A DNA stretch of 64,000 nt from Verrucomicrobiota bacterium (lineage in GTDB: Bacteria; Verrucomicrobiota; Kiritimatiellia; CAIQIC01). The notes under the pieces are model-generated. The model saw only the letters and a list, made by a program, of their open reading frames with translations. It was not told where the DNA came from and ran no database searches. Shown here one piece after another: positions 8,226-37,500 of this stretch. The first letter of the stretch is position 1. Each line of letters opens with the position of its first letter. The stretch covers positions 27,344 to 91,343 of the forward strand of contig SCQF01000048.1 in NCBI GenBank assembly GCA_004321905.1, written 5' to 3'. Made by a program: the position numbers and the translations under genes.

Positions 8226-8228
8226 GGG

Positions 8229-9404: not shown

Positions 9405-9437
9405 TATATGTTTCGGCGGCCCGTGGTCGCCGACTCT

Positions 9438-10694: not shown

Positions 10695-10707
10695 TTCGCG
10701 AAAATTT

Positions 10708-15826: not shown

Positions 15827-16796
15827 AATCACTTTCCTTGAAGCGATCCGCCAAGCGTTGCAGCGGCTGTTGCGCGAGCGAAGCGAGGTTGTGCTCTACG
15901 GACAGGACATCGGCTCATTTGGCGGCGCCTTCAAGGTCACCGCCGGCCTGCAAAAGGAATTCGGCGCGGCGCGCGTCTTCGATACACCGATCAGCGAGTC
16001 GGCCATTTTGGGTTCCGCCATAGGCATGGCCACCCAAGGTTTGCGTCCGGTGGTTGAGATGCAGTTCGCCGATTTCATGATGACAGCGGTGCATCAACTC
16101 TTGAACAATGCCAGCACACTGCACTATCGCACCGGCATCGCCGCGCCCATGACGGTGCGCGCGCCGTGCGGTGGCGGGTTTGGCGGCGGGCCGTTCCACT
16201 CCGAAGAACTCGAAACCTTTTTTTGCCATATGCCCGGCATCAAAGTGGTCTACCCCGCCTTCCCCGCCGACGCCCGTGCGTTGCTGTATAGCGCGGTGAT
16301 GGATCCAAATCCCGTCGTCTATCTCGAAAACAAATATCTTTATCGTCATGTGAAGGAGTGGCTGCCGAACGACTGGATGCCCACGCCGCTGGGCGTGGCG
16401 CGCGTCTGCCGCCCCGGTACCGACGCGGTCGTGCTGACCTATGGCGCGATGGTGCACGAGGCGTTGCGCGCCGCCGAGCAACTTGCTGCCGAGGATGTCG
16501 GCGAGGTCATGGTGCTCGACTTGCGCACGCTCAAACCGCTCGACACCGATGCCATCGTCGCCGCCGTCGCCGCGACCAACCGCGTTTTGATCGTGCACGA
16601 AGGCTGGCATACGAGTGGGTTTGGCGCAGAACTTGCCGCGGTGGTCGCGGAACGCGCCTTCCACCTGCTGGATGCGCCGGTCGGGCGACTGACCGCACCG
16701 GACTGCCCCATCCCATTTGCGCCGGAGTTGGAAAAGGCTTACCGGCCTGACGCTGAAAAAATTCACAAGGCGCTGGTGGAACTGCTGGAGTATTGA
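15813..16796 (+). CDS. pdhB: pyruvate/acetoin dehydrogenase E1 beta
   Basis: EVVLYGQDIGSFGGAFKVTAGL...FDTPISESAILGSAIGMATQGLRPVVEMQFADF. Confidence 0.93.
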   Translation: MPTAEITFLEAIRQALQRLLRERSEVVLYGQDIGSFGGAFKVTAGLQKEFGAARVFDTPISESAILGSAIGMATQGLRPVVEMQFADFMMTAVHQLLNNASTLHYRTGIAAPMTVRAPCGGGFGGGPFHSEELETFFCHMPGIKVVYPAFPADARALLYSAVMDPNPVVYLENKYLYRHVKEWLPNDWMPTPLGVARVCRPGTDAVVLTYGAMVHEALRAAEQLAAEDVGEVMVLDLRTLKPLDTDAIVAAVAATNRVLIVHEGWHTSGFGAELAAVVAERAFHLLDAPVGRLTAPDCPIPFAPELEKAYRPDAEKIHKALVELLEY

Positions 16797-16805
16797 GGGA
16801 TTCGC

Positions 16806-18074
16806 ATGAAAAAACGCGTGCCGATTTTGATGCCGCAAATGGGCCAGAGTGTGGCCGAAGGCACCGTGGTGGCTTGGAAACACAAAACCGGTGAAAACGT
16901 CAAGGCCGACGAAGCTCTGCTGGAAATTGAGACCGACAAAACGAACGTCGAGGTGGAGAGTCCCGCGACCGGCACACTGGTCGCCTGCCTCAAGCACGAT
17001 GGCGAGCGCGCCGCCGCCGGCGAGACCATCGGCTTCATCGAAGTCGAAATCACCGCCGAAGAAGCTGCCAAACCACACGGTGCGGCACCCAAAGCCGAGG
17101 CTGAAACGGTCTCCAGCCAAACGACGTTTCAGATCACCAACGATCTACCAGCCATCAACCGCGATCAGTTTTCACCCTACGTCCTGCGGCTGGCAATGCT
17201 GAACGGCGTCACCATGGAGGAGTTGGAAGGTATCCGCGGCACCGGCCGGGGCGCGCGCGTCACCAAGAGCGATTTACTGCACTACCTCGCCCGCCGGCCC
17301 ATCGTCACCAACGGCGTGCGTGCAGCGCAAGGCGTGGCGGAACCTTCCGCCGCCGATCTCGCTGCGCTGGGCAAAGTGGTGCCGATGACGAGCATCCGCC
17401 GCACCATCGCCGACCATATGGTGCAGAGCATCCACACCAGCGCGCACGTCACGATGGTGCATTTGGTGGACATGACGCATTTGGTACAGCTCCGCGAACG
17501 CATCAAGGACGAATTCGAGCAGCGCTATCATGCCCGCCTCTCCTATACAGCCTTGGTACTGTTCGTCACGGCGCGTGTGCTGCGCGATTTTCCGAGCATC
17601 AATGCCTCGGTGGCTGGGGCGAATTTGGTACTGCGGTCGGAGGTCAACATCGGTTGCGCGGTGGCACTCTCCGACGAAAGCTTGGTCGTACCGGTGGTTC
17701 ATCAGGCTGATAAAAAGAGTTTCCCGGAAATCGTACAAGAACTCGACCGCCTGATCGAACGGGCGCGCAAGAAGGAACTGACCCGCGCGGATGTCGAGGG
17801 CGGCACCTTCACCATCTCCAACTTCGGCGCGTTCGGCAGCATCATCGGCACGCCCATCATCAACCAGCCGCAGGTCGCGATCCTCGGCATGGGCGCCATC
17901 GTGAAGTCCCCGACGGTGGTGGATAACCAGATCGTCATCCGCGATCGCCTCTATTTGAGCTTCACGTTTGACCATCGCGTGATTGATGGCGCGATGGGCG
18001 GACGCTTCCTCAACGCCATCCAAAAAGCGACCGAAAAGCTCGACGAAAAAGCCCTGAACGTCGAAGCACTTTGA
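16806..18074 (+). CDS. pdhC: dihydrolipoamide acyltransferase E2
   Basis: Lipoyl domain ETDKTNVEVESP; E3-binding domain; SFTFDHRVIDGAMGGRFL. Confidence 0.93.
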   Translation: MKKRVPILMPQMGQSVAEGTVVAWKHKTGENVKADEALLEIETDKTNVEVESPATGTLVACLKHDGERAAAGETIGFIEVEITAEEAAKPHGAAPKAEAETVSSQTTFQITNDLPAINRDQFSPYVLRLAMLNGVTMEELEGIRGTGRGARVTKSDLLHYLARRPIVTNGVRAAQGVAEPSAADLAALGKVVPMTSIRRTIADHMVQSIHTSAHVTMVHLVDMTHLVQLRERIKDEFEQRYHARLSYTALVLFVTARVLRDFPSINASVAGANLVLRSEVNIGCAVALSDESLVVPVVHQADKKSFPEIVQELDRLIERARKKELTRADVEGGTFTISNFGAFGSIIGTPIINQPQVAILGMGAIVKSPTVVDNQIVIRDRLYLSFTFDHRVIDGAMGGRFLNAIQKATEKLDEKALNVEAL

Positions 18075-20103: not shown

Positions 20104-21519
20104 ATGACCACAGCGCGCAAACTCGTAATCGTGACCAGCGCAGTGCTGCTGTTGCTCGCCACCGGCGTGCTGGTGGATATTTTGTGGAGCGCGCGCACGC
20201 CAACCCGCGCCATCCAAGAGCGCCAACCCGGCATGGATCGGCCGGCCCAAAGCGGAGGACAGGCCGACGAGGCCATGGCGTTCACACGTGGCAAATGGGT
20301 GCCGGGTACGGGCGTGGCGGCGAACAGCAGCGGCGCCTGGCCGAATTTTCGCGGGCCGAATCACGACAATATCGTCACCGATCCGACCCCACTGGCGCGT
20401 CACTGGGGCACCCAGGGGCCAGCAAAACTTTGGTCACTTGATCTCGGTGAAGGTTTTGCCGGTGCGGCGGTGCTGAACGGGCGGGTGTACATCATTGATT
20501 ATGATCAAGCTCATCAAGCCGACGCGTTGCGCTGCCTTTCGCTGGCGGACGGCCAGGAAATCTGGCGTTTCACCTATCCGGTCAAGATCAAGCGCTTCCA
20601 CGGCATGAGTCGCACGATCCCGGCGGTGACCGATAAATACACGGTCTCCATCGGCCCGAAGTGTCATGTGGTTTGCGTGGATACCAGCACTGGAAAGTTC
20701 ATCTGGGGCTTGGATTTGGTGAAGGAATTTGACGCCGAGGTGCCGCAGTGGTACGCGGGACAGTGTCCGTTGGTTGACGGCGACCGCCTCATTCTCGCCA
20801 CCGGCGGCGACGCGTTGATGGTCGCGGTGGAGTTGGCGACCGGCAAGGTGATCTGGAAAGCACCCAATCCGCGCGATTGGAAAATGACGCATTCTTCCAT
20901 CGCGCCGATGGAGCTTGCCGGGCAGCGCATGTATGCCTATTGCGGCAGCGGTGGCGTGGCGGGCGTGGCAGCCAGCGACGGCAAGTTGTTATGGGACACC
21001 GATGCCTGGACGATTTCCATCGCGACCATCCCCCAGCCGCTGCCGGTGGGCGATGGGAAGATTTTTCTGTCGGGCGGCTACAATGCCGGCAGCCTGATGC
21101 TGCAACTCAAACACGTCGAAAATAAAATCGTGGCCGAACCGTTGTTTCGCCTGAAGCCGACGGAGTTTGGCGCGACCCAGCACACGCCGATTCTGCATGA
21201 CGGGCATATCTACGGCGTACGACCGGATGGGCAACTGACCTGTCTGGACTTGAACGGCAAAGTGCGGTGGGCCAGCGGTGGCGGAGCCAAATTCGGCATG
21301 GGATCGTTTATCATGGCACAGGGTCTCATGTTCCTGTTGAACGACGATGGCTGGCTGACGCTGGCGGAAGTCAACTCCGTGGGTTACCGCCAACTCGCCA
21401 AGGCGCGGGTGCTGCCCGGTCAGGACGCGTGGGCGCCGCTGGCCTTGGTTGAGGGGCGCCTTTTGGCGCGCGACATGACACAAATGGTTTGTCTGGATGT
21501 TGCGGGAGCAAAACCGTGA
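20104..21519 (+). CDS. PQQ-binding-like beta-propeller repeat protein
   Basis: WPNFRGPNHDNIVTD...LSLADGQEIWRFTYP; N-terminal hydrophobic segment. Confidence 0.85.
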   Translation: MTTARKLVIVTSAVLLLLATGVLVDILWSARTPTRAIQERQPGMDRPAQSGGQADEAMAFTRGKWVPGTGVAANSSGAWPNFRGPNHDNIVTDPTPLARHWGTQGPAKLWSLDLGEGFAGAAVLNGRVYIIDYDQAHQADALRCLSLADGQEIWRFTYPVKIKRFHGMSRTIPAVTDKYTVSIGPKCHVVCVDTSTGKFIWGLDLVKEFDAEVPQWYAGQCPLVDGDRLILATGGDALMVAVELATGKVIWKAPNPRDWKMTHSSIAPMELAGQRMYAYCGSGGVAGVAASDGKLLWDTDAWTISIATIPQPLPVGDGKIFLSGGYNAGSLMLQLKHVENKIVAEPLFRLKPTEFGATQHTPILHDGHIYGVRPDGQLTCLDLNGKVRWASGGGAKFGMGSFIMAQGLMFLLNDDGWLTLAEVNSVGYRQLAKARVLPGQDAWAPLALVEGRLLARDMTQMVCLDVAGAKP

Positions 21520-22559
21520 AGAAGAATACGCAAGTGAACCGCCGCGGATTCCTGGGTGCCGGACTGCTCGCGGGCAGCAGCGTGGCCAGTTGGTTGACCG
21601 GTTGCGGCGGGCAGAAAAATCTACGCAAGGCCGGAAAGCGCCAACCACTGGATGCGCGCTTCACCTACGATATCAAGGCCTTTGAGCACACCGATCCCAA
21701 GCTCCTGCTTTACACAGAAACGGCGCAAATCCCCACCGATTTTCAGGAGCCCAAACGCATCACCGCCGGATCGAACGGCACGTTCTGGATTGGCGGCGAT
21801 CAAGCCGTGAAACGATTGGGGGCGGATGGCAAGCGCCACTCCACACTGACACTCGCGGCAACGCCCCAAGCGTTGACCGTGGCCGAGCAAGACCGGCTTT
21901 TTGTGGCGCTCAAAGATCACTTCGAAATCTATGATACCGCCGGAAAGTTGCTGCAAAAAAGCGAGTCGCTCGGCCCGAAGACCTATCTCACGGGTATTGC
22001 GGTCGCGGGCGACGTGATTTTTCTGGCTGACGCGGGTAACCGCGAAGTCATCCGCTGCGACATGACCGGCAAGGTCATCGGTCGCTTCGGTCGTCTGGGC
22101 GGCAAAGATGGTACGCCGGGATTTTTAATCCCCAGCCCCTATTTCCACTTGCTGATTGGTGGCGACGGGTTGCTCTGGGTGAATAATTCCGGACGCCACG
22201 CGGTGGAGGCCTACACGCTCGACGGCAAATACGAATTCAGTTGGGGCCAGCCCGGCATGAGCATCGAAAACTTCTGCGGCTGTTGCAATCCGGTGTATTT
22301 CACCCGATTGCTGGATGGACGTTTCGTGACCAGTGAAAAAGGCCTGAATCGGATCAAGATTTACGATCAAAAAGGCCAGTTTGTGGGCGTCGTCGCCGGT
22401 CCCGAACAACTGGTGAAGGATCGCGAACAGGCGGCCAAGGCCTGCGCCAATTGCAACATCGGCTTTGGTTTCGATGTGGCATGTGATTCCCAAGGTCGCG
22501 TGCTGGCTCTCGATCCCGCCTCGCGCACCATCCGCATCTTCAGCCCCCAAGCCACATGA
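21516..22559 (+). CDS. Tat-exported NHL-type beta-propeller protein
   Basis: VKKNTQVNRRGFLGAGLLAGSS (Tat-like RR motif); repeated propeller blades; GTG start overlaps the upstream stop. Confidence 0.75.
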   Translation: MKKNTQVNRRGFLGAGLLAGSSVASWLTGCGGQKNLRKAGKRQPLDARFTYDIKAFEHTDPKLLLYTETAQIPTDFQEPKRITAGSNGTFWIGGDQAVKRLGADGKRHSTLTLAATPQALTVAEQDRLFVALKDHFEIYDTAGKLLQKSESLGPKTYLTGIAVAGDVIFLADAGNREVIRCDMTGKVIGRFGRLGGKDGTPGFLIPSPYFHLLIGGDGLLWVNNSGRHAVEAYTLDGKYEFSWGQPGMSIENFCGCCNPVYFTRLLDGRFVTSEKGLNRIKIYDQKGQFVGVVAGPEQLVKDREQAAKACANCNIGFGFDVACDSQGRVLALDPASRTIRIFSPQAT

Positions 22560-22729
22560 ACGCACCAACCGAAAATCGTCGCTCGTTCTTCCGCGCCCTG
22601 CTACTCGGCGCGTTGGGATGGATCTGCGTGACGCTCCTGCGGCGACCGCGTCTGTGCCTGCGCTCCGGCTGTGGGGGCTGCACGGCATATGCCCGTTGTG
22701 CCCTGCCCCAAAAGGAGCCCTCGCGATGA
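22556..22729 (+). CDS. small 57-aa Cys-rich membrane/Tat-like protein (not in supplied ORF track)
   Basis: Read directly: MNAPTENRRSFFRALLLGALGWICVTLLRRPRLCLRSGCGGCTAYARCALPQKEPSR; ATGA overlaps with both neighbours. Confidence 0.7.
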   Translation: MNAPTENRRSFFRALLLGALGWICVTLLRRPRLCLRSGCGGCTAYARCALPQKEPSR

Positions 22730-23277
22730 ACCGGCGCAACTTCATCAACGGCGTAGCACGCGTCGCCGCCTTGCTCGGCTTGGGCGGCTTGGCCGCTCGC
22801 TTGTTGCAACACGCGCAAGTCGCGCACACCGTCTGGCAGATTGATCCTTGGAAATGCACCTACTGTGGCAAATGCGCGACCGAGTGTGTGCTGGAACTAT
22901 CCGCCGTCAAATGCGTACAGTTCTATGACATCTGCGGTTATTGCGATTTTTGCACCGGCTACTTCGAACCACAACCCAACAAGTTGAGTACGGGCGCGGA
23001 AAACCAGCTCTGCCCCACCGGCGCCATCGTGCGCAAATTCATCGAAGACCCCTACTACGAATACACGATCAACGAACCGCTCTGCATCGGTTGCGCCAAG
23101 TGCGTCAAAGGCTGCACGTTGTTTGGCAATGGCTCCTTTCACCTCCAAATCAAGCATGACCGTTGTGTGAACTGCAACGAATGTTCGATTGCCAAAGCGT
23201 GCCCCGCCAACGCGATCCACCGGATTCCATCCAACAAGCCTTATCTGTTCAAAACGCGCGAAGGGAAGCCGTCGTAA
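22726..23277 (+). CDS. Tat-exported 4Fe-4S ferredoxin-type protein
   Basis: MNRRNFINGVARVAALLGLGG; CTYCGKCATEC, CIGCAKCVKGC, CVNCNECSIAKACP. Confidence 0.88.
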   Translation: MNRRNFINGVARVAALLGLGGLAARLLQHAQVAHTVWQIDPWKCTYCGKCATECVLELSAVKCVQFYDICGYCDFCTGYFEPQPNKLSTGAENQLCPTGAIVRKFIEDPYYEYTINEPLCIGCAKCVKGCTLFGNGSFHLQIKHDRCVNCNECSIAKACPANAIHRIPSNKPYLFKTREGKPS

Positions 23278-24557
23278 TGGCCACCGCCCTCGCCCAACGC
23301 TTCCCACCGCCGGAGTTCACCGAGACCGGGCACCAAATGCCCACGCTCACCGGTTTCCCCTCACGTGCACTCGCTTGGGATTACGTGGATGTCGTCGTGC
23401 TCTTCGTGGCCCTCGCCTTGGCCGCATGGCTGGTGCTCCGACGACGTTCGCGGCGCGGCGTGATTGCGCTGAGTATCTTCTCGCTGCTCTACTTTGGATT
23501 CTGGCGCAAAGGCTGCGTCTGCTCCATCGGCAGCATGCAGAACATCACACAAGCGCTCTTCGATTCCGCCTACGCCGTCCCGCTGACCGTGCTGGCTTTC
23601 GGCGTCTTGCCGCTCGTCTTTGCTCTGTTCTTTGGCCGCGTATTCTGCGCCGCCGTCTGTCCGCACGGCGCTTTTCAAGACTTGATGCTGCTGCGTCCGT
23701 TACACACACCCACCTGGCTGGAGCACGGCCTGCGCCTGCTGGCCTACGTCTACCTTGGCTTGGCCGCCATCTTCGCGGCGACGGGCGGCGGCTACATCAT
23801 CTGCCAATATGACCCCTTCATCGCCCTTTTTCGGTTGAGCGGTAGCCTGACGATGATCCTGCTCGGCGTTGGCTTTCTCGCCGCCAGCCTGTTCATCGGA
23901 CGCCCCTATTGTCGCTTTCTTTGTCCCTACGGCGTCTTGCTTGGGCTGGCCGCGGCCGTCGCCCGCTGGCGGCCCAGCATCACGCCCAGCGCTTGTACGC
24001 AATGCAGCCGCTGCGAAGATTTCTGTCCATTCAATGCGATCAACATTTCCACACCCAAGCCAGCCCCGTTGCAGCCGCCCTCACCCATGGCCCAGAAAAT
24101 TCGGCTGACCGTGTTACTGCTGCTCATCCCCATCTTCGTGGGCCTTGGGCTGTGGCTTGGCGACGCGGCGGGCGCGGCGTTGGCGCGCAAACACCGCGTC
24201 GTCAATCTGGCCGAACGCGTTCATCTGGAGACAAGCGGCACGGTTCAGGGCACCACCGAGGCTTCGGAGGCTTTTCACGCCGCAGGCACGCCGCAGGAAA
24301 AACTTTTTGGCGAGGCCCATACGTTGCGCGAGCGCTATGTGCGGGCCGGTCGGCTGGGCGGCATCTGGGTGGGACTGGTGGTCGGCATCAAATTGCTGAC
24401 ACTGGGTTTCCGGCGCAAACGCGAGCGCTACGAAACCGATGCCGAGCATTGTCTGGCTTGCGCACGCTGCTTTGAATTCTGCCCGCAAGACCAGAAGTGG
24501 AAACAGATTTTGGCCCAAGCGCCGCATCCGGTGCACGCAGCGGACGCCACGAAATGA
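23277..24557 (+). CDS. NosR/NapH-like polytopic 4Fe-4S membrane protein
   Basis: GRVFCAAVCPHGAFQD, GRPYCRFLCPYGVLLG, CTQCSRCEDFCPF, multiple TM segments. Confidence 0.87.
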   Translation: MATALAQRFPPPEFTETGHQMPTLTGFPSRALAWDYVDVVVLFVALALAAWLVLRRRSRRGVIALSIFSLLYFGFWRKGCVCSIGSMQNITQALFDSAYAVPLTVLAFGVLPLVFALFFGRVFCAAVCPHGAFQDLMLLRPLHTPTWLEHGLRLLAYVYLGLAAIFAATGGGYIICQYDPFIALFRLSGSLTMILLGVGFLAASLFIGRPYCRFLCPYGVLLGLAAAVARWRPSITPSACTQCSRCEDFCPFNAINISTPKPAPLQPPSPMAQKIRLTVLLLLIPIFVGLGLWLGDAAGAALARKHRVVNLAERVHLETSGTVQGTTEASEAFHAAGTPQEKLFGEAHTLRERYVRAGRLGGIWVGLVVGIKLLTLGFRRKRERYETDAEHCLACARCFEFCPQDQKWKQILAQAPHPVHAADATK

Positions 24558-26263
24558 AGGAAGAGCAAAAACAACTTTTCCACCCCATCGTGGTGGCCGT
24601 CACGAGTATCGCCGCACTATTCATTCTCGCACTGGGCGGGCTGCTGCTCTGGAACCAAGCACGGGGCAAGGTACCCATGCTGGTGAATTCCGTGGAACTG
24701 AAAAATCTGCATGAGGAACTCCGTCATCATCCGAAGGACGAGGCGCTGAAACTGCAAATTCGTCGGCTCGATTTCCAATTGCGACAGGCACTTTTCGCCC
24801 GCCTACAACTTTCGCGCAACGCCACCCGCGCGCTGGCCGTCGGCGTTTTTATTTTTCTGGTTGGCGCACATTTTTCTCGCGTCACCCGCCTCCAGCGCCC
24901 CGCTCCACGCCGCCGCCCACGCCATACCCACGAATCGGAAACTCGCAAGCACCGCATCGCCAGTCTGGTGCTGCTCGGTGTATTTGCTGGCGTGGCAATA
25001 GCAGCGTTGCTGCTTTCCCGAAACCCCGTCCAACTTCCGCCGCGTGGCGCGGCAACGCCCACCGCAGTCGCCGTACCGGATTTTCCCACGCCGGAGGAAA
25101 TCCGCCAAAACTGGCCCAGCTTCCGCGGCCCCAACGGCGCGGGCATCGCCAAAACGGCCAACATCCCGCTGACTTGGGACGCCAAGACCGGCCAAAACAT
25201 CCGCTGGAAAACCGCTATTCCTTTGCACGGCATGAGTTCCCCGATCATCTGGGGCAACCGCGTGTTTCTGACCGGTGCGAACGCTCAATCCAACTGCGTC
25301 TTCAGTTTCGCCGCCGATACCGGCCAGTTGCTCTGGACATCCAACATCACCATCCCCGGCGGCGTGCGCGCTCCAGCGCCCAGACTCGGCGACGACACCA
25401 GCCTCGCCGCGCCCACGCCCGTCACTGACGGACGCCGCATCTACGCCATCTTCCCCAACGGCGAGATTGCCGCCTTCGACTTTGCCGGGAAACAAATTTG
25501 GGCACGTAACATCGGGCCACTGGAAAATTCTTATGGCTACGCCGCATCGCTCGCCATCTATCAGGATTACCTGTTCATCCAGATTGACCGCGGTGCGCCA
25601 GAAGACGGCCAATCCAAGATGCTCGCGCTCGACACCCAGACCGGACAGGAACGCTGGGAAAAACCACGCGCGGTGAACGGTTCATGGAGTTCGCCAACGA
25701 TGATCGAAGTCAACGGCCAGCCGCAACTGTTGACCGCCGCCGCGCCATTGCTCATCGCCTATAACCCGCTCGATGGCACCGAGCTTTGGCAACTGAAATG
25801 CCTGGAAAGCGATGTTGCGCCCACGCCGATTTTCGCCGCCGGCATGGTCGTGACCATCGCGCCCAACACCGCCATCTACGGCGTGCGCCCCGGCGCGGCG
25901 AACTTCGCGTGGAAGATCGAGGACGGCGTGCCGGAAGCCACCAGCCCGATCAGCGATGGCCAGCGCGCCTACATCATCAGCAACGAAGGCCTGCTCAACT
26001 GTTGCGATTTGCAAACCGGGAAGCGGATCTGGCAGCACGAAATCGAAGGTCAATTCTACGCCTCGCCGAGCATCGCCGGCAATGCGCTCATCGTGCTCGA
26101 CCGCGCCGGCACGGCGCATGTGCTCGCGCTGGGCGATAAATTCGAGGAACGCGGCCAAGGCTCCATCGGCGAAGAATGCGGCGCCAGCCCCGTCCCACAC
26201 GGCAACCGTCTCTATCTGCGCGGCAAAGAACACCTCTTCTGCATCGAAGCCGCGCAAAAATAA
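24554..26263 (+). CDS. membrane-anchored PQQ-like beta-propeller repeat protein
   Basis: TM segments then NWPSFRGPNGAGIAKTANIPLTWDAKTGQNIRWKTAIP propeller blades. Confidence 0.85.
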   Translation: MKEEQKQLFHPIVVAVTSIAALFILALGGLLLWNQARGKVPMLVNSVELKNLHEELRHHPKDEALKLQIRRLDFQLRQALFARLQLSRNATRALAVGVFIFLVGAHFSRVTRLQRPAPRRRPRHTHESETRKHRIASLVLLGVFAGVAIAALLLSRNPVQLPPRGAATPTAVAVPDFPTPEEIRQNWPSFRGPNGAGIAKTANIPLTWDAKTGQNIRWKTAIPLHGMSSPIIWGNRVFLTGANAQSNCVFSFAADTGQLLWTSNITIPGGVRAPAPRLGDDTSLAAPTPVTDGRRIYAIFPNGEIAAFDFAGKQIWARNIGPLENSYGYAASLAIYQDYLFIQIDRGAPEDGQSKMLALDTQTGQERWEKPRAVNGSWSSPTMIEVNGQPQLLTAAAPLLIAYNPLDGTELWQLKCLESDVAPTPIFAAGMVVTIAPNTAIYGVRPGAANFAWKIEDGVPEATSPISDGQRAYIISNEGLLNCCDLQTGKRIWQHEIEGQFYASPSIAGNALIVLDRAGTAHVLALGDKFEERGQGSIGEECGASPVPHGNRLYLRGKEHLFCIEAAQK

Positions 26264-26342: not shown

Positions 26343-28050
26343 AAGTCGCAACACGTTCGAGCGCACCGACAAGAAAAATCAGCGGATAGAGCCGCTCGAA
26401 ATACCAGAGTTTGGCAAAATAGAGACCGATCGGCGCGGCAGGTGTTTCGCGACCTTGCGCGGTCGCGGCGATCAACCAGTCCACGCCGCGCAGGACAGCG
26501 TCGCGGGCGCGCGGAACCACCGCCAACGTATTCACCGCCAGCGCAGTTTCTTCGATGGATGGCGGCGTTTGCGTCGCCCCACCCCAACTGCCATCAGAAT
26601 TTTGCGCGGCGAGCAGCCAGTCCATCGCGCGATCCTGCAACCCCTGCGTTTGTGGATCGTTGAGCGCCTGTAAACCAAGCAACACCTGTGCAGTGCCACA
26701 AGTCAAATTCTCGTCATTGGGTGCATGTTGATTGCCAAACCAAAGCGGTGACCACGCGCCATCAGCACGCTGTGTTTGCGTAAGGAAGGCAATCGCACGC
26801 CGAGTGGCGCGCTTGATCCGGCCCTGCAACGGCGGCGGCATATCGTCGCGCCACACGGCCCAAGCGCGCAAGGCGTGAGCTGTGATGTCGGGCGTACTGC
26901 GGTCGAATGGCAACGCGCCCCACCCTTTGCAAAACGTCGGCATCCCGCCATTGCGATTCTGCAAATCCAATAGCCATCCTATTCCTTTCTGAATCGCATC
27001 TGTGTTTAATCCGCGTTCATCTGCGTCCAAGGTTTTTAAAGCGAGCAAAGCACCGGCGGTATCGTCGGCGTCGGGTACGCCGCCCGGCAGATCAGTCCAC
27101 GCCCACCCGCCGGGCGCGGCATGGGTGAAGGGATGTTCATTGCGATACTGCTGACCAAGCAGCCAATCGCCGATCGGTGCGCGTTCTGCCACGGGTAGCA
27201 CTGGCCCCAGTGCATTGACCGCGAGTGTGGCCAGCCACGTCGCCAGATTGGTATCAATCGGCCAACTCCCATCGGCACGCACGGACTTCACCAAAAACCG
27301 CACACCGCGCACCGCCACCGGATGCCGACCTTGTCCCATGCCGGCGAGCGCCATCACGACAAAGCTCGTCAATGGTGCAGCCTCTAAAAATCCTCCATTC
27401 ACTGGCTGAATTTTTTCCAGCACGCGCAACGTCGCCGCGCGCACGCCATCACGCAGCCAACGTCGCTCCGGTAGATGATGATGCCGCACCTGTCCGATGG
27501 CGATCAGCGCAGGCAAGGCGTAGCTGACCACCGGCAGCCGCAACCACCTGAAGAGTTGATGCGGCAACACCGTGAGTTCAAACGGCAAAGGTAAAACGTC
27601 CTTCCACGCAACTCGGCCTGCCAACGCACATGCAGTCAAGATCGGCACGGAAAAGGTTCGGTCCTTGCCATAGCCCGCAATGATCGTCTGCGCTAACTGC
27701 TCCGGCTCTACGCTGCCGGCTTCACGAACCAACCAAGCTTCCGCCGCAGGTGCGGGTTTGTTCAGCAGGCCGAACGCGGCCCAACAGAGCGTCGTGGTGC
27801 TGATGTTGCTGCGGCTCAGCACCGTGTCGCCCCACCCGCCATCGGCATTCGCATGCGCCGTGAGCCATGCGAGTCCGCGTTGAATCAACGCGGCATGTTG
27901 GCCACGGTCCACCAGTGCCAGCGCGATCACCGCCGTCGCCGTGGAAAGCGCACTCGAAGAAAGTTCGCCCTCCCAATGTCCATGCGCCCCGCGTTCGGCC
28001 AGCAGTCGCTCGCGGACACGCACCAAGGTTTCTTGGAAGGCCGGATTCAT
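26323..28050 (-). CDS. class II terpene cyclase (squalene-hopene cyclase-like)
   Basis: DxDD-type motif PDADDTAGALLALKT; QW-like repeats; ADGAWSPLWFGNQHAPNDENLTCGTAQVLLGL. Confidence 0.85.
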   Translation of the reverse strand: MNPAFQETLVRVRERLLAERGAHGHWEGELSSSALSTATAVIALALVDRGQHAALIQRGLAWLTAHANADGGWGDTVLSRSNISTTTLCWAAFGLLNKPAPAAEAWLVREAGSVEPEQLAQTIIAGYGKDRTFSVPILTACALAGRVAWKDVLPLPFELTVLPHQLFRWLRLPVVSYALPALIAIGQVRHHHLPERRWLRDGVRAATLRVLEKIQPVNGGFLEAAPLTSFVVMALAGMGQGRHPVAVRGVRFLVKSVRADGSWPIDTNLATWLATLAVNALGPVLPVAERAPIGDWLLGQQYRNEHPFTHAAPGGWAWTDLPGGVPDADDTAGALLALKTLDADERGLNTDAIQKGIGWLLDLQNRNGGMPTFCKGWGALPFDRSTPDITAHALRAWAVWRDDMPPPLQGRIKRATRRAIAFLTQTQRADGAWSPLWFGNQHAPNDENLTCGTAQVLLGLQALNDPQTQGLQDRAMDWLLAAQNSDGSWGGATQTPPSIEETALAVNTLAVVPRARDAVLRGVDWLIAATAQGRETPAAPIGLYFAKLWYFERLYPLIFLVGALERVATFPALEK

Positions 28051-29039
28051 GCCAGATGTCCCAGCGCCAGCAATCCATAAAAGGTGTATTCAACGTCGAG
28101 CGCATCGTCGGCCCAGTGCCCATGAAAACCGCCAGCGTTATCCCAGAGCGAATCAATGAAGTTCAAGCACGGCTCACGTAGCTCAGCCAGCGGCGCACCG
28201 AGTGTGGCCAACGCATGGAGCGCCGTCGCGGTGGAGAGCAGATCGGGCAACGGCGTTTGCGGTGTGGCGACGAATCCTCCGCGCGCGTGGCAGCGCGCCA
28301 GCAACCACGGCACAATCTCCGGCGGCACCGGCGCGCCAAGTTCGTCAAGCAAGGCAACGGCGGCGGCGGTCGCGGTGGTCGAACCAAGCGGCAGACCCGG
28401 CGCGTTGCCATACGCGCCATCGGCGGTACGCAGCTTTTCCAAGGTTTGGAAAACCCGCTGCCGGGACTTTCCAAGGTTTGGAAAAAGCTTAACGCCAAGG
28501 CGCAGAGGAAAAGGCAAAGACGCGAAGAAAACGGTCAGCTTTGCGCCTTCCGTCTTTCCTTTGCGCCTTTGCGTTAACTCCGCTGCTTTGACATCCACGG
28601 CCTGGAAAGCCTCGCCAGCCAGCAGGCAGGCATAGATGGTGGCATGAGGCGCGCCAGCTTGCTGGTTATAGCCGTCATCGGCCGTGCGCCAGTTTTCCAG
28701 ACGCTGCAGTAGTGCGACCCGCGAGACGTCCGACATATTTCCCGGTAGCGCCGACCAACAACGCGCGAGGCAGGTCAAATGGACAAAATCAAGTTGCGCG
28801 TCAGCGCCAAAGGTCAGCAGATATTTTTTTAGCGCGGCGGTATCACAAGGCGCGGCGAGCGCCTCCAAGGCATCAAGACCGAAGACGGTGTAATAAAGAT
28901 CGCACTCGCCGGCCCGATTCTTAAACCCGCCGTCGGCATGTTGTTGCCGCAGGACAAACTGGCGCACGAGTCCGGTGGCGTCACCCAGCAGCTTCGGCGC
29001 TCGTCGCGCGGCGGTCTGCATTGCGCGCTTCAAACTCAT
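28047..29039 (-). CDS. prenyltransferase/squalene-oxidase-repeat (alpha-alpha barrel) protein
   Basis: QQHADGGFKNRAGECDLYYTVFGLDAL; terminal DNAGGFHGHWADDALDVEYTFYGLLALGHL. Confidence 0.8.
   Translation of the reverse strand: MSLKRAMQTAARRAPKLLGDATGLVRQFVLRQQHADGGFKNRAGECDLYYTVFGLDALEALAAPCDTAALKKYLLTFGADAQLDFVHLTCLARCWSALPGNMSDVSRVALLQRLENWRTADDGYNQQAGAPHATIYACLLAGEAFQAVDVKAAELTQRRKGKTEGAKLTVFFASLPFPLRLGVKLFPNLGKSRQRVFQTLEKLRTADGAYGNAPGLPLGSTTATAAAVALLDELGAPVPPEIVPWLLARCHARGGFVATPQTPLPDLLSTATALHALATLGAPLAELREPCLNFIDSLWDNAGGFHGHWADDALDVEYTFYGLLALGHLA
28437..28483. repeat. paired palindromes, 32-bp dyad spacing, inside CDS
   Basis: TTCCAAGGTTTGGAA twice (28437, 28469). Confidence 0.95.
28490..28577. 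repeat. AACGC-CAAAGGCGC type inverted repeat embedded in CDS
   Basis: TTAACGCCAAGGCGCAGAGG...CCTTTGCGCCTTTGCGTTAA. Confidence 0.82.
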
Positions 29040-30690
29040 GACACCAGCCTTTGAATTCCACCTCATTGAAGATTTTGCCGATCACGCGGCGCAACAGACC
29101 TTTCAGCGTGGGGTTGTCGAGATCGCGCAGCACGCGAATCGCCGTGTTTTTATAGGTCTCCAGCAACTGATGCGCGTGTTCATGGGCCTGTACCTCGGCG
29201 AAACGCGCGTGCAACTGGACGGCGTTGATATCGGCGGGCGGACACCGCCGCCAGAGCGCATCGAGCAAGGTTTGCTGGCCGCCCCGCGCACGTTCATAGG
29301 CGATGGCCAGCAGCAAGCTCGGTCGCAGGCCCTGCAAATCGTCGGACTCTGCGGCGGCGCCGAAATCATCGAGATCATCATGAATCTGGTAGGCGATGCC
29401 GAGCGCCTCGCTGTAGGCGGCGAGTACCGTACCGATAACCGCCGCACCGCCGGCGCATAGCGCGCCCAGATGCAAGGCCACCTCGAAGGCGGGTGCGGTT
29501 TTCTGGCGGAAAATATTCAACACCTCGGTCGGGGACAACGGCGCGGGCTTTTGCGCCCACGCAAGCTCCGCGCCTTGGCCGCGACACAACTTGCGATGCC
29601 CCGCCACCGCCACACGTAACATCTCCACGCGGACATCCGCCGGTAATGGACATTCCTCAATCATCCGATAGCCTTCGCCGATCAGAAAATCACCGACGTT
29701 AAGCGCCACGGGAATGCCATGCTGGGTATGGAGGGTCTTCTCGCCGTAACGAAGCGCGTCGCCATCCTCAATGTCGTCATGCACCAGCGAGGCTTTGTGA
29801 AAACATTCCACCGAGACCGCGATCTTGCGCAGCGCGCTGGGCAGCTCTGCTGCGGGATCGTTGCGCATGGCCTGAAAAGCCGCCACCGCCAGAAAGGGCC
29901 GCCACCGTTTGCCGGCGCGCGCCAGCCATTCGCGGGCCAACCGCTCCGTATCGTCCGCCGTCGGACCCATAATCTGATCGAGCATCACGGGCGCGAACCA
30001 ACCCTCCACCTCGCGTTGCAACGCCGTGAGGTCAAGGCGGCGGGTACGGTCGGCGCTGGTCAGATGAATCGCCTCCCAGACCCAGTCCATATCCACTGCG
30101 GTGTTGGCGCAATCCGACTGCAACAGCGGAATCGCCAGCCCCGGAATGGCGGCAGCCTCCATATAAGGAAACGCGCGTTCCAGCACATTCATGCAGGAGA
30201 CGCCAACAATTGCGTCAATTTTCCCGGCTTGGATCAATTGCGTCACCACCGCTGAACCTTCGGCGACCAGCACGACATAGCCCAACCGTTCGGCCTCGCT
30301 CTGGAGTTCGGGGATCGTACAGCCGCCGCACTGTGCACAGAGCAGGCCGAATTGATCGAACGTGGCTTGGCAGTTTTCCGCATGCCGCAGACATTTGGGC
30401 AGCAAGAGCAAGCGGCGTTCATAGGGCACCGCTGCCAGCGGTTCGCGCCACAGCTCGTTGTTGATCAGAATCGAGATGTAGTCGCGGTACTGCACCGCGA
30501 CGCCGGTCAGGGCAATCATCCGCTCGGCCAGTTGACGCAAATCGGCGGACGAAAGTGGCGGCACCGGCGCCCACTCCCGGACGAAGCCGCGCACGAATTG
30601 GGCGAACAACTCCCGCTCGGCGCGCGTTTGCGGCACACGCTCCTCCGGCGGACGAAAATGCGGCGGCAAAATTGAGGACGGTTCGTTCAT
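28981..30690 (-). CDS. DUF116-like N-terminus fused to trans-polyprenyl diphosphate synthase
   Basis: N-term LLLLPKCLRHAENCQ...CAQCGGCTIPEL...AIVGVSCMNVLE; C-term two DDxxD motifs (VHDDIEDGD, YQIHDDLDDF). Confidence 0.85.
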   Translation of the reverse strand: MNEPSSILPPHFRPPEERVPQTRAERELFAQFVRGFVREWAPVPPLSSADLRQLAERMIALTGVAVQYRDYISILINNELWREPLAAVPYERRLLLLPKCLRHAENCQATFDQFGLLCAQCGGCTIPELQSEAERLGYVVLVAEGSAVVTQLIQAGKIDAIVGVSCMNVLERAFPYMEAAAIPGLAIPLLQSDCANTAVDMDWVWEAIHLTSADRTRRLDLTALQREVEGWFAPVMLDQIMGPTADDTERLAREWLARAGKRWRPFLAVAAFQAMRNDPAAELPSALRKIAVSVECFHKASLVHDDIEDGDALRYGEKTLHTQHGIPVALNVGDFLIGEGYRMIEECPLPADVRVEMLRVAVAGHRKLCRGQGAELAWAQKPAPLSPTEVLNIFRQKTAPAFEVALHLGALCAGGAAVIGTVLAAYSEALGIAYQIHDDLDDFGAAAESDDLQGLRPSLLLAIAYERARGGQQTLLDALWRRCPPADINAVQLHARFAEVQAHEHAHQLLETYKNTAIRVLRDLDNPTLKGLLRRVIGKIFNEVEFKGWCHEFEARNADRRATSAEAAG

Positions 30691-31574
30691 AACGCGTTTT
30701 CGTCCACGCGATCGGCTTTCTTTTTCATCCGCTCCAGAATGGCAGCGGAGGTGGATAATGATTGCAGGACTGCCGGCAGAATGTCGAGTTGTTGCTGCAA
30801 CTCGGCCAGACATTTCCGACGCTCGGCCGCGGCCAATTCAGCATTACGCCCCACATCGAATCGAGTCTGAACCTGCGTCCGACGCTCGCGGAGTGCCTGA
30901 TATACGTCGCCACCCAGCAACGCAGAAATATCCACCTTGGCCGGACCACGCTGCCGGTCAGCGTCACGGATTTCTGCGCCGTTGATCGGGGCCTCGCCAT
31001 GTTTGGGGAAGATGATCGCCAGTTCGGGGCAGACACGGGCACACGCGGGACACCCTGGTTTGCAGTTATCCGGTTGGCGAACCTGTAGTTGGCCATCCGT
31101 TCCCATGGCGTAAACGCCAAACAGACAGAAACTCAGGCATTGCTGGCAGTGCGTGCACCGCGCGAAATCAATCACCGGAAACCACGCCGAACTTTCCACC
31201 GCTTGGCCGGCCAAGTCCGCCGCCAGTTGCACCGGATCGCGTGGTGCGGCAGAGCCGCCGGCCAGACTTGTGAGCACGGCGTGATCCACAGGTGCGCGCA
31301 AATCCACGATCTGCGCCGCGTCCGACAAGGGCGCATCCGCCGCCGCAAAGAGAGCACGTACCGCGCGAGGATGACACGCCAGAATAGTGACGGCACCGCT
31401 GCCAGCCAAGGCGTGCAGCAACGGATCCTTCCGCGCCGCCAGCACGCATAAATCCGGCACGGCGACAAAATCCGCGCCACGGCAGAGTTGCTCCAGCGCC
31501 GCATTGCGTGTTGCCCACGGCAATACCTGCGCTTGCGCGCAATGACAGTACAAAACTTTAGGCGTCGCGGTCAT
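30687..31574 (-). CDS. 4Fe-4S ferredoxin-like protein
   Basis: CTHCQQCLSFCLFGVYAM...NCKPGCPACARVCPELAIIFP. Confidence 0.8.
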   Translation of the reverse strand: MTATPKVLYCHCAQAQVLPWATRNAALEQLCRGADFVAVPDLCVLAARKDPLLHALAGSGAVTILACHPRAVRALFAAADAPLSDAAQIVDLRAPVDHAVLTSLAGGSAAPRDPVQLAADLAGQAVESSAWFPVIDFARCTHCQQCLSFCLFGVYAMGTDGQLQVRQPDNCKPGCPACARVCPELAIIFPKHGEAPINGAEIRDADRQRGPAKVDISALLGGDVYQALRERRTQVQTRFDVGRNAELAAAERRKCLAELQQQLDILPAVLQSLSTSAAILERMKKKADRVDENAL

Positions 31575-31608
31575 GAGACGAGATCAACTATGCCACGAAA
31601 TCCGTGAT

Positions 31609-31655
31609 TTCCAAACCTTGGAAAAAAGTTTGTTTACGTTTTCCAAGGTTTGGAA
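31609..31655. repeat. paired palindromes, 32-bp dyad spacing
   Basis: TTCCAAACCTTGGAA + TTCCAAGGTTTGGAA (31641). Confidence 0.95.
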
Positions 31656-31668
31656 GAAGAACAATAAA

Positions 31669-32772
31669 TCACTCCGGCTGACTGATTCGATGCGTCGGAT
31701 TCGGCTGGCCGGGACGGAAACTTTCCAGATGCGTAAGCGCGAGCTGCTCACCGGCCCACCGGCCGACCACCTGCCGCGTCACCTTTTCCAAAACATCCGG
31801 CGCGGCCTCGGCCCGTAGATTCAGCATCAATGTCCCTGCGGCCAGCGCGGCCTGAAGCTGATGCGAAAATTCGGGCCGTTGGTCGTTCCGCACCAGATGT
31901 ACGGCACCGATATCGAAGCCCATTTCATCCGGCGTGAGAGTCATCTTCAAGTGGGCCACCTCGGCGCCGGCGTGTTGCAATTCGGACTGCAAGGCTTCGG
32001 CCAGGCGCACAAGCAAGGCATTGCCATCGAATGGCGCGGATGCGCTGACGCGCAAGGCGGCGTTGAGCCAACCCATCAGCGCCTCGCCCTGTCCATACAG
32101 TTGATAATCCACATCCATGGCCCGATGCGGTTGCAATTCCGTGGTCGTGATCCGCGTGAACCAGTCAGCCAAGCCTGTACCGGAACGGGCGGAGCACTCG
32201 AAAACCTCGGCACGCGGAAACCGCATTTGCAATGCTTGGCGCAATGCGACGCGATGGACGTCATCCAGCAAATCGCATTTGTTGATGACGATGATATCCG
32301 CTTCTTCGAGCTGCTTCTCGTAGATATAGCGCACCTTCTCCGAAAACTTCGGCCCGGCTTCGAGCCCCAGTACGCGCGCGGCGCGGATGGGATCAACGAG
32401 CACGCTGAAGGGTGCGATGCGATAGTCCGCGTCGTACATTTTCCGCAACGGAAAACCAACGGTCGCCACCAGGTCGGTGCAACTGCCGACCGGCTCGGCC
32501 AGAAAGACATCCGGCCGCGCGGTCGCCGCGAGTTTCTGTGAGGCCTCGACCAGCGAGTTGAAGCGGCAGCAAAAACAACCGCCCGCAATCTCCTCCACCG
32601 GCCACTGCGCCGCACGCACGCGCGCGGTATCCACCAACCCGCCGGCTTGGTCGTTGGTAATCAAACCAACGCGCCGCCCTTGCACTTTGAGTTGATCGGC
32701 CAGCCGGAGCATCGCCGTCGTTTTGCCCGCGCCGAGAAAGCCGCCGATCAGGATGTATTGCGCTGGTGCCAT
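31669..32772 (-). CDS. CobW/P47K-family GTPase (metallochaperone-like)
   Basis: ILIGGFLGAGKTTAMLRLADQL...GCFCCRF...VINKCDLL. Confidence 0.92.
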   Translation of the reverse strand: MAPAQYILIGGFLGAGKTTAMLRLADQLKVQGRRVGLITNDQAGGLVDTARVRAAQWPVEEIAGGCFCCRFNSLVEASQKLAATARPDVFLAEPVGSCTDLVATVGFPLRKMYDADYRIAPFSVLVDPIRAARVLGLEAGPKFSEKVRYIYEKQLEEADIIVINKCDLLDDVHRVALRQALQMRFPRAEVFECSARSGTGLADWFTRITTTELQPHRAMDVDYQLYGQGEALMGWLNAALRVSASAPFDGNALLVRLAEALQSELQHAGAEVAHLKMTLTPDEMGFDIGAVHLVRNDQRPEFSHQLQAALAAGTLMLNLRAEAAPDVLEKVTRQVVGRWAGEQLALTHLESFRPGQPNPTHRISQPE

Positions 32773-32774
32773 AT

Positions 32775-33269
32775 TTATTCTTCGTTATTTTTCGCCGCCA
32801 GTTTGTCAATGATGGAGTCCAAGGTGCCGATATAACCAAAAACATCCAACTGCGCCGGATCAGGCGTGCCGCGTGCTTCATAGAGCCAGCCTGCGGCATA
32901 GGGATCGGCTTGCGCGAGTTCGCCATCCCGTTCCAAGGCGGGATTGGCCCGCAGAAAAAAGCCCTCCATGACGCTGTATAAAGCGGTCACCGCCTTCAGC
33001 CCCTCGTAGGAACCCAACTCCTGCCCGAGCTGCAAACGGTCGCCGGTGCAAACATGCGTCTGTAACTCCACAAAATCCCCCAACATCCGCACCGCAAATT
33101 TGGTGAAACCGATGCGCCAAAGATCGGGTTCACCCATCGACATCAACCAGAAGTGCGACGTGGTATAGCGATAGGTCTTTGGCAATTCGGTCATGAAGCG
33201 GCAACGGCGATAGGCCACCGCCGCGCCCAAGTCGGCCACCACGCCTTTGAATTCGAGATGCGGTTCCAT
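32775..33269 (-). CDS. GcvH-like lipoyl-carrier protein
   Basis: TSHFWLM...WRIGFTKFAVRMLGDFVELQ...GQELGSYEGLKAVTALYSVMEGFFLRANPALERDGELAQADPYAAGWLYEA parallels GcvH including the candidate lipoyl-Lys (EGLKAV). Confidence 0.8.
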   Translation of the reverse strand: MEPHLEFKGVVADLGAAVAYRRCRFMTELPKTYRYTTSHFWLMSMGEPDLWRIGFTKFAVRMLGDFVELQTHVCTGDRLQLGQELGSYEGLKAVTALYSVMEGFFLRANPALERDGELAQADPYAAGWLYEARGTPDPAQLDVFGYIGTLDSIIDKLAAKNNEE

Positions 33270-33278
33270 CGTTGCCGT

Positions 33279-34475
<1,197 letters not shown>

Positions 34476-34521
34476 CGCGTCTCGTTTGGTGGCCGCTAAA
34501 TATGCCGCACTCGCCCCGCTT

Positions 34522-34568
34522 TTCCAATCCTTGGAAAAATTGATCGCACACTTTTCCAAACACTGGAA
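34522..34568. repeat. paired palindromes, 32-bp dyad spacing
   Basis: TTCCAATCCTTGGAA + TTCCAAACACTGGAA (34554). Confidence 0.93.
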
Positions 34569-34579
34569 ACGCGTGCGGG

Positions 34580-37500
34580 CTATTCGGTCCTCAACGCCGC
34601 AAGCAGCGGGCCACGCAGAGCCGCGCGCATAGCGAGCCACGTCCAAAGCAGACCGCTCACCAGCAAGCCGCCCAAGGCGCTGCCCAGTAGCGCCACCGGC
34701 ACCGCGCTGCCTGCCGCCGTCCACGTTGGCCAGATGGCAAGCACGGCAGAAATCAAACCAATGACCAAACCGAGCACAATCAGCAGCCAGTGTTCATGGA
34801 GCACCATCCGCTGTACGTCGCGGCGGCGAAAGCCAAGGGCCAGCAACAGCGCCAATTCGCTGCGCCGTTCGAGAACGTTGCGCAGAACGACCAACCCCAA
34901 TCCGATACTGCCCAGTAGCAGACCCAAACCGCCGAGCACCTGGAAAATGCCGAGATACGTGTTTTCGACAGCCATGAACTGCGCCAGTCGTTGCCACGCG
35001 GGCACGACTTCCAGCCCACGATCTTGCAGCGCACGCGACAACGCGGTGGAAACTTCGGCAGCACGTGCCGGTGGCGCATCGATCAAGAACATGCGATAGC
35101 CGCCGGTGGCGGGAAAGTGCGCAACAAAATTTTCCGCCGAAATCAGCAAGCTGCCTTGGAGTACGGAATTGGCCAACACGCCGACGATACGTAGCGTGAA
35201 GGTGCGGCCACGCTCATCGGTATACGGCAAGGTGTCACCCAGCTTCTTACCCAACCCCCAGACAACGGTTTGCTCGTCACCCATCGCTGGCACAGTCTCA
35301 TCGGGCGTATGCTCGTTAAGCAAGGCCCAATGCCCACTTTTATCGGTGAATGAAAATGCATGACACCACTCCAACTCATCCGGCAACACGCCGAGCAGGC
35401 GCGGCTGCTGTGCCCGGTTCAAGTTCAAGCAACTGGCATCATCACCCTCGCGCAGGCGCAGTGACACGATGTTCACATCGCGCAGTTCTTCGGCGGAAAG
35501 TCCGAACACTGCACGCCCGGCTGGGCTGTTCAGGTCGTCATAAATTGGCAACGTGGACTGTGCAAAAAGCGCAAAGCCGCCGGTGCCGGAATGCCGCTCC
35601 TGCGCGGCTTGCCGGGGATCGCGCTGAAACGCACTCACCGCAACGAACAGAAACACACCGCTGGCCAATACACTGATGGTGGCCAGACTGCGGCGGCGAC
35701 GGCGCGACGCGTTGCGGCGGCCCAGTTCGGCTAACGTGCCTGTTAGTTGAGTCGCGCTAGAAAACGTTGCCAGCAACACCTGACTGAAGCCCAGTCCCGC
35801 AAGCAGCAGACACGCGCCAGAACCGAAGAAAATTTCCGCAGCCTCTTGATCGCGTCCGTGATGTGCACCCAACAACGAGGCGATGGCCCCGCCCAAGCCC
35901 AACAAAACCAGCCACCAACCGAGGCGACCGCGGGCCGACGCAGGACCCTGTTCCACTGCCGCGCCACCGGCCAGTAGATCGGCAGGTGCACGCCGGGTCT
36001 GTCCCCGCTGTACCAGCGCCATTGCCGTACCAGCCGCCAAGAGACTCAAGGCCACACCGAGCACCAAGCTGATGGGGTTGGCATGATAATGAATCGCGAT
36101 GTTGCCCACCGCATCGCGCCAGATGCCGGCCAGTCCCAGCAAGGTCAAGCGAGTATAAAGCGCCCCCAACACCACACCCAGCAACGCGCCCAATCCGGCG
36201 ACGGCAAAGCCCTCCCACCAGAGCAGCCGACGAACCTGCCGGGGCGTAAATCCAAGCGCGCGCAGCAATCCAGCCTCGGTATTGCGCTGTTCAAGATTAA
36301 AGGCAAATAGCAATGCGGTCAGGAGCAAGGCCGCGACGATCAGGAAGAAACTGAAGCCGATGAATAGCTGGCCGAAATCCAAGGCTTGGACACTGGCCGC
36401 CAACGCTTGCGCACGCACCGGCACAACGAATAAACCCAACGTGGCCGAATCAAGCCTAGCTTTGAGCGCTCGTTCAACATCCGCCACTTTATCTGCCGCA
36501 TTCGGAAAACGAACAGCTGTCAACCGGCCAAACCGATTACTCCAGAGTTGCTGACCAGCGGCCAGACCGAGAAACAGCTTCGGCGTACCGCGATAGGCGC
36601 TCCAATATTCTTCATCTTTCGGACGGATGCGTTCCGTGGCAATCGGAATGCCCGGTGTCCACTCGCGGCAATTATGGGCGTCCGCCAAGCCGGGATACGC
36701 CGGCATCCACGAGTCGTCTTTCGTCAGCGACACAATCGCACCCACCCGGAATTGCGCGTTAGTTTCGCGCAACTCCCGCCGCTCGCCCATCACGAAATAG
36801 CGCAACGTCACCACATCCTCCACCTGCGCGCCGAGGTCGTCCGCCAGCCAACCGTTGATCGTGACTACGTCACTCTGCAACGGCTGGCCCACCGCCGTAA
36901 CAAAGGAATAGGGCGTGGCATTTGTGCCTCGCCGGATTTCGTTTGCAAAATAAGTCAGCACACCCATCGCGTTGGAGGAAAGCGATAGCGCCACCGCTTC
37001 GACCGCCGGGTCGAGGAAAACGCGTGCGGTACGCAATTCAGCCGTCCGCCCATCCGCCAAGCTGTGCAATTCGAGGCCGACATCTGTCAGGGTCCAGTTG
37101 CGACGCAAAGCAGCCGCAACCCCTTGCTTGGCATCGGTGAGTAACACATTGGCCTGCCCAGCCCGTTTGAGCTGTGTTTGTAACGTGGATAGCGGAATAA
37201 ACACCGACAGCGGCGGAACCTGATTCGCCTGCAAACCAAACCGACCAAAATCGCTTTCCTCCGCAATGGCACGCACCTTCACACGCACGGCAACTGCGGC
37301 ATCACTACGCCCGGATAACGGGGCATCGCGCGAGATCAAGGACGGTTCCTCAACCCGGACCACAAGACTATCACCAACGCGTATCCCCAGTTGCGCGGCC
37401 AAAGAGCCATTGATAACCGCTTCGTCAGCGCGACTGCCTGCCAGTAGATTTTTATCCGCGCCCAACTTCCAAAAACGATCTTCAACGCCTACCACCTGTG

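Follow-up and report, generated by a model that had tools for sequence, protein, structure and literature searches.

We assign the GcvH-like gene analysed here, found in a 64,000-nucleotide stretch of a Verrucomicrobiota genome (the window), to a new subfamily of such carriers, one whose genomic context is also new; its placement in an isoprenoid pathway is well supported. Its product has an H-protein fold with an invariant lysine and falls in a clade of its own; the gene lies in an operon with isoprenoid genes, and the two co-occur among genomes. We tentatively propose that it is a dedicated lipoyl-type carrier, a GcvH paralogue with its own clade, acting in an accessory NifS/GcvH/CobW module that would supply sulfur or dithiol chemistry to the Fe-S enzymes of the isoprenoid pathway.

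Lipoic acid is taught as the cofactor of a handful of complexes. LbpA showed in 2018 that new pathways can lie behind GcvH-like orphans. Here, a single clade, its lysine invariant, is linked to a conserved isoprenoid cluster in three or more phyla, which suggests that lipoic-acid carriers have a role not recognised so far. The idea is testable, since the clade includes cultured species such as Chthoniobacter flavus. DUF116, to our knowledge a domain without assigned function and scarcely named in the literature that we searched, is now linked to isoprenoid synthesis. Annotators are also given a reason against labelling the genes of this clade as glycine-cleavage H proteins.

The open reading frame, which encodes 164 residues from an ATG start, runs from 33269 to 32775. 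The coordinates of the original prediction were right, and the gene lies on the minus strand, the plus strand over 32775-33269 being broken by internal stops. The GcvH layout that had been noticed is present (TxxHFWL, YEGLKAVTALYS and NPALERDGELAQADPYAAGWL), and Pfam GCV_H (PF01597) matches residues 34-132 with 53.5 bits for a cut-off of 22.2, which excludes a chance match. Structure prediction likewise gave the lipoyl-carrier fold of H proteins: the AlphaFold2 model, built with 55 relatives, has a mean pLDDT of 95.5, and its best PDB matches in Foldseek are glycine-cleavage H proteins, among them E. coli apoH (3a7l; TM 0.88 by target, 1.7 Å). A C-terminal helix (143-163) extends the protein past the H-protein core.

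The candidate lipoyl-lysine is K92, in EGLKA, located in the turn that joins strand 84-90 to strand 94-98 of the model. In H proteins, lipoate is attached at the corresponding turn. K92 and the Glu at -3 are invariant in all 81 aligned relatives, as expected if the lysine had been correctly singled out, and G76, G90, A93 and G103 (K+11) are among the other invariant or near-invariant residues. In the bovine H protein, lipoylation is sensitive to the Glu at -3 and to the Gly residues at -16 and +11; all three are found around K92 in the window protein. No conserved cysteine was found in the clade, no Cys column exceeding 52% in the 81-sequence alignment. Thirteen planctomycete proteins end in a cysteine (KKC, KTC, KSC or GKC; loci L072, L073, L074, L076, L077, L080, L081, L086, L088, L089, L091, L106 and L116), and their clusters also encode a toroid resembling protein prenyltransferases. 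This C-terminal Cys is confined to a mostly planctomycete subset of the 81 aligned proteins.

Table 1. Genes of the window discussed in the text, with the evidence for each assignment.
Feature	Position	Strand	Evidence
2-oxoacid dehydrogenase E1 alpha, E1 beta and E2 with lipoyl domain	14849-18074	+	
Squalene-hopene-cyclase-like (SHC-like) enzyme, 575 aa	26323-28050	-	Pfam SQHop_cyclase_C, 137 bits
Prenyltransferase/cyclase-type alpha-alpha toroid protein	28047-29066	-	Pfam Prenyltrans, 49.4 bits
DUF116-polyprenyl diphosphate synthase fusion	28981-30813	-	Pfam DUF116, 120.7 bits; polyprenyl_synt, 136.2 bits
Fe-S protein	30687-31574	-	Two 4Fe-4S motifs (C140-C182); ferredoxin-type Pfam and PDB matches
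CobW/COG0523-type GTPase	31669-32772	-	Pfam cobW, 87 bits; P-loop and CxCC (C66, C68, C69) conserved
GcvH-like protein, 164 aa	32775-33269	-	Pfam GCV_H, AlphaFold, Foldseek, lysine alignment
Radical SAM protein	33279-34724	-	CNLRCQGCW motif; Pfam Radical_SAM, 61.7 bits

The genes around this ORF form an operon with it (Table 1). Between the radical SAM gene, conserved from about 34484 onward, and the GcvH-like start there are 9 bp, and 2 bp separate the GcvH-like stop from the CobW gene downstream. The radical SAM protein aligns with its family (24 members, 41-75% identity), and its PDB relatives are SkfB and BlsE. The Fe-S protein has 12 invariant cysteines overall, four of them (C10, C12, C43, C67) in its N-terminal domain; an HdrA-like identity for this N-terminus was considered and set aside, the PDB matches being weak and limited to the ferredoxin region. 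The DUF116-polyprenyl synthase, which likely starts near 30690, has DDIED and DDLDD-type motifs. Its DUF116 part contains 7 invariant Cys in the alignment and is modelled with low confidence, the Foldseek matches (GGPP and polyprenyl synthases) concerning the synthase part only. In the SHC-like enzyme, the DxDD protonation motif (VPDADDTA) is present, and DxDD is kept in 23/23 relatives. These five proteins (Fe-S protein, radical SAM, DUF116-polyprenyl synthase, toroid and SHC-like enzyme) form the core of the isoprenoid cluster. No match to a desulfurase gene was found in the window.

We then looked at the distribution of the clade. Scanning 84,980 species genomes, we obtained 226 relatives and fetched the loci of the best 80 of these; as they were chosen by their similarity to the query, the neighbour counts below describe near relatives best. 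All the evidence consists of sequence and predicted structure, and most genomes are metagenome-assembled and incomplete. The fetched relatives come from Verrucomicrobiota, Planctomycetota, Acidobacteriota and lake metagenome-assembled genomes labelled Lentisphaerae, the lineage of the window being itself of Lentisphaerae type. In a tree of 29 GcvH-like proteins and 16 canonical GcvHs, the two sets split with 100/100 support.

Among the 81 loci examined (drawn from the best of the 226 relatives), CobW was directly downstream of the GcvH-like gene in 42. The radical SAM and Fe-S genes were each present in 36, the DUF116-polyprenyl synthase and the toroid each in 25, and the SHC-like gene in 24. 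A NifS/IscS/DndA-type cysteine desulfurase (above 150 bits) was found in 20 fetched loci, directly upstream of the GcvH-like gene in 10 of them, and the two NifS proteins tested scored 326-452 bits against the IscS/NifS/DndA models. The recurrent cluster is composed of cysteine desulfurase, GcvH-like, CobW, Fe-S, radical SAM, DUF116-polyprenyl synthase, toroid and SHC-like genes; in Acidobacteriota and Planctomycetota, the full order encountered most often is GcvH-like, CobW, Fe-S, radical SAM, DUF116-polyprenyl synthase, toroid, SHC-like. The original prediction had described the neighbourhood as CobW and radical SAM: both do recur beside the gene in relatives, and what it missed was the isoprenoid cluster and the cysteine desulfurase of the relatives. 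We found no published description of such a GcvH-like/isoprenoid cluster in the open-access literature. Some loci carry other genes directly upstream of the GcvH-like gene, namely an HpnD-like squalene/phytoene synthase in 8 Akkermansiaceae-type loci and a PQQ-type beta-propeller in nine others. No partner gene was present in the fetched flank of 26 of the 81 loci, the partner synthase being usually encoded elsewhere in the genome. Indeed, a DUF116-polyprenyl synthase was detected in 27 of the 30 GcvH-like genomes searched, many of which have a split cluster.

Co-occurrence was analysed in the 346 genomes of the window's class. The GcvH-like gene is present in 6 of them, and a CobW with at least 50% identity is found in exactly those six; four further genomes have a remote CobW (~40%) and no GcvH. 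The radical SAM gene occurs in 59 and the DUF116-polyprenyl synthase in 72 of the 346 genomes, and all six GcvH-like genomes hold both. The six belong to three families, so that these counts overstate independence: they are separate lineages sharing the GcvH-like/CobW pair, though not six independent events. In one distant GcvH-positive member of the class, NifS, GcvH-like and CobW genes are contiguous. About 53 genomes of the class have the radical SAM and the DUF116-polyprenyl synthase and no GcvH-like protein, which indicates that the core chemistry does not depend on the carrier everywhere. Nine of these GcvH-less clusters were inspected: they contain the Fe-S protein, radical SAM, DUF116-synthase and toroid genes, often with the SHC-like gene, and none of the nine has a GcvH-like or CobW match. 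As a minor observation, a MIP/aquaporin-family gene directly precedes the cluster CobW in one genus-mate (L171:4798-5799), and an aquaporin-like gene precedes the remote CobW in a genome without GcvH-like gene (L177:7475-8356).

How could a lipoyl carrier serve such a pathway? The accessory module would comprise the GcvH-like carrier, CobW and, in many relatives, the NifS-type cysteine desulfurase. K92 would be lipoylated by the ordinary LipB/LipA or LplA-type machinery of the genome, and the dithiolane arm might then deliver sulfur or reducing equivalents, taken up on the side of the desulfurase, to the cysteine-rich radical SAM, Fe-S and DUF116 proteins, while CobW would supply metal. This delivery could serve either product chemistry or cluster maintenance. 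A carrier shifting sulfur or dithiol reducing power from the trio to the core enzymes appears to us the most economical account. Beyond glycine cleavage and Hdr-like sulfur oxidation, such carriers may even have a third role when free-standing, acting with a cysteine desulfurase, CobW and radical SAM/DUF116 proteins in an undescribed isoprenoid pathway of Verrucomicrobiota, Planctomycetota and Acidobacteriota, possibly leading to a sulfur-containing or reductively modified terpenoid; we hold this broader proposal slightly more loosely still.

Two other explanations are each unlikely and still deserve consideration. According to the first, the lipoyl arm holds a pathway intermediate, a C1/aminomethyl or acyl unit used by the radical SAM enzyme for isoprenoid tailoring, in place of sulfur or electrons. 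The H-protein fold with its lysine is in keeping with this, as is the linkage to radical SAM, polyprenyl synthase, SHC-like and HpnD-like genes, but the association with NifS and CobW points to sulfur or metal. Moreover, the presence of the core enzymes in ~53 genomes without the carrier makes an obligatory substrate carrier unlikely, unless the product differs. The second, to which we give a similarly low probability, sees in the NifS/GcvH/CobW trio a module for Fe-S or metal maturation and repair, mainly in oxygen-exposed lineages, with the carrier as a dithiol scaffold and not a metabolic carrier. The co-variation of GcvH and CobW around a core that can stand alone speaks for it, together with the NifS adjacency and the many invariant cysteines of the DUF116 and Fe-S proteins (7 and 12). 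As regards oxygen, COX1 was detected in 3/6 of the cluster genomes with GcvH and in roughly 8/53 of those without it, a difference suggestive at most; three GcvH-positive members of the window's genus do not have it.

That the protein belongs to ordinary glycine cleavage, as its H protein or as a redundant copy, is far less probable. The GCV_H domain and the fold are shared, down to the lipoyl-lysine hairpin, ExxKA and the conserved Gly after the lysine, but HEW is replaced by H[YF]W (77/81) and ESVKA by EG[FL]KA in the GcvH-like clade, which also differs by its C-terminal helical extension. The protein stays under both gcvH cut-offs, with 62.9 bits instead of 115.85 for the equivalog (TIGR00527) and 66.4 instead of 117 for the NCBIfam subfamily. 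The host assembly (2.53 Mb, 94% complete) contains three GCV_H genes, namely the window gene, a copy on contig 18, and a canonical gcvH (158.7 bits) lying directly before lipB on another contig than the window gene. The contig 18 paralogue scores 112 bits with GCV_H and 101.7 against the gcvH cut-off of 115.85; it is located beside CcdA-like, thioredoxin-like and ArsR-like genes (L029:4396-4938, minus strand). As had been stated, neither gcvT nor gcvP is found among the ORFs of the window, and the genome-wide search placed gcvT, gcvP, lipA and a second LplA/LipB-family (LplA-type) gene on other contigs, so that the whole set of true glycine-cleavage and lipoate genes lies elsewhere in the genome, unlinked to the window gene. 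An ordinary gcvH identity was therefore rejected on the cut-offs, the clade and the separate canonical gcvH, and the same facts, together with the recurrence of CobW and radical SAM beside the gene, support the original idea of a divergent carrier outside glycine cleavage. With lipA, lipB and the LplA-type gene, the machinery required for lipoylation is present in the genome. The radical SAM protein was also considered as a dedicated lipoyl synthase for the GcvH-like protein and discarded: it resembles SkfB, BlsE and NirJ-type proteins, LipA is encoded elsewhere, and it occurs in the ~53 genomes without the carrier.

The comparison with the sHdr system made in the original prediction holds as regards a carrier for non-glycine pathways, and fails as regards membership in the LbpA family. 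LbpAs, the published case that we found, are GcvH-like carriers outside glycine cleavage, clustered with Fe-S and radical SAM proteins (PMC6067878, PMC10332631), and they are of the same carrier class with an invariant lysine (PMC6067878). Most LbpAs, however, have a pair of conserved Cys, one N-terminal and one C-terminal (PMC6067878), and the genes of those studied belong to hdr-like clusters or adjoin them, with dedicated ligases and with sLpl(AB)/LipS1/LipS2 (PMC6067878, PMC10332631). The clade described here lacks this Cys pair, and its recurrent neighbours are isoprenoid genes, with no Hdr-like or lipoate-ligase genes seen among the recurrent families considered. The radical SAM protein of the window is of the MoaA/SPASM-like kind and also occurs without a carrier. 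On the missing Cys and the gene linkage, we rejected an LbpA of Hdr-like sulfur oxidation as most improbable.

The GcvH-L of Streptococcus and Staphylococcus (PDB 5a35) has a similar small lipoyl-carrier fold (TMt 0.78), but identity is 15%, and no macrodomain or sirtuin family is found among the recurrent neighbours of the GcvH-like genes. It is the absence of conserved Cys and of Hdr-type recurrent neighbours, together with this 15% identity, that leads us to define a new subfamily instead of a member of LbpA or GcvH-L. The NCBIfam family NF045810 (GcvH_rel_desulf) is likewise GcvH-related, but the window protein scores 27.1 bits for a cut-off of 150. Likeness to the hopanoid pathway concerns the SHC-like enzyme with its DxDD and, in Akkermansiaceae-type loci, the HpnD-like synthase next to the GcvH-like gene; the SHC-like enzyme of the window is nevertheless far under the hopene-cyclase equivalog cut-off (107.9 versus 431.1 bits).

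The window holds a second lipoate user, the 2-oxoacid dehydrogenase E1/E1/E2 set, whose E2 (16806-18074) is 15 kb from the GcvH-like gene. A lipoyl relay passing octanoyl or lipoyl groups to E2 domains, like Bacillus GcvH with LipL, would fit this proximity, but it is most improbable given the recurrent linkage to isoprenoid genes, the lack of an E2 among the most recurrent neighbour families, and the presence of LipB and an LplA-family gene in the genome.

Other genes of the window deserve mention. At 20104-26263 on the plus strand, two genes for PQQ-type beta-propellers, one for a NapH-like Fe-S membrane protein and one uncharacterised gene converge on the isoprenoid operon. GcvH-less relatives (L162, L163, L164, L166) have similar propellers beside their clusters, and propellers directly precede the GcvH-like gene in the nine loci mentioned above, which suggests an envelope redox partner. 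Further away, a UbiA prenyltransferase is found with putative phosphatase-type, dehydroquinate-synthase-like and TIM-barrel-like genes (7053-11466, minus strand), a set that looks like an ebo cluster. Finally, short repeats translating as FQTLEK, FSKVWKK or FPSLGK are scattered in intergenic DNA and at gene ends (for example at 28200-28500 and 31573-31800).
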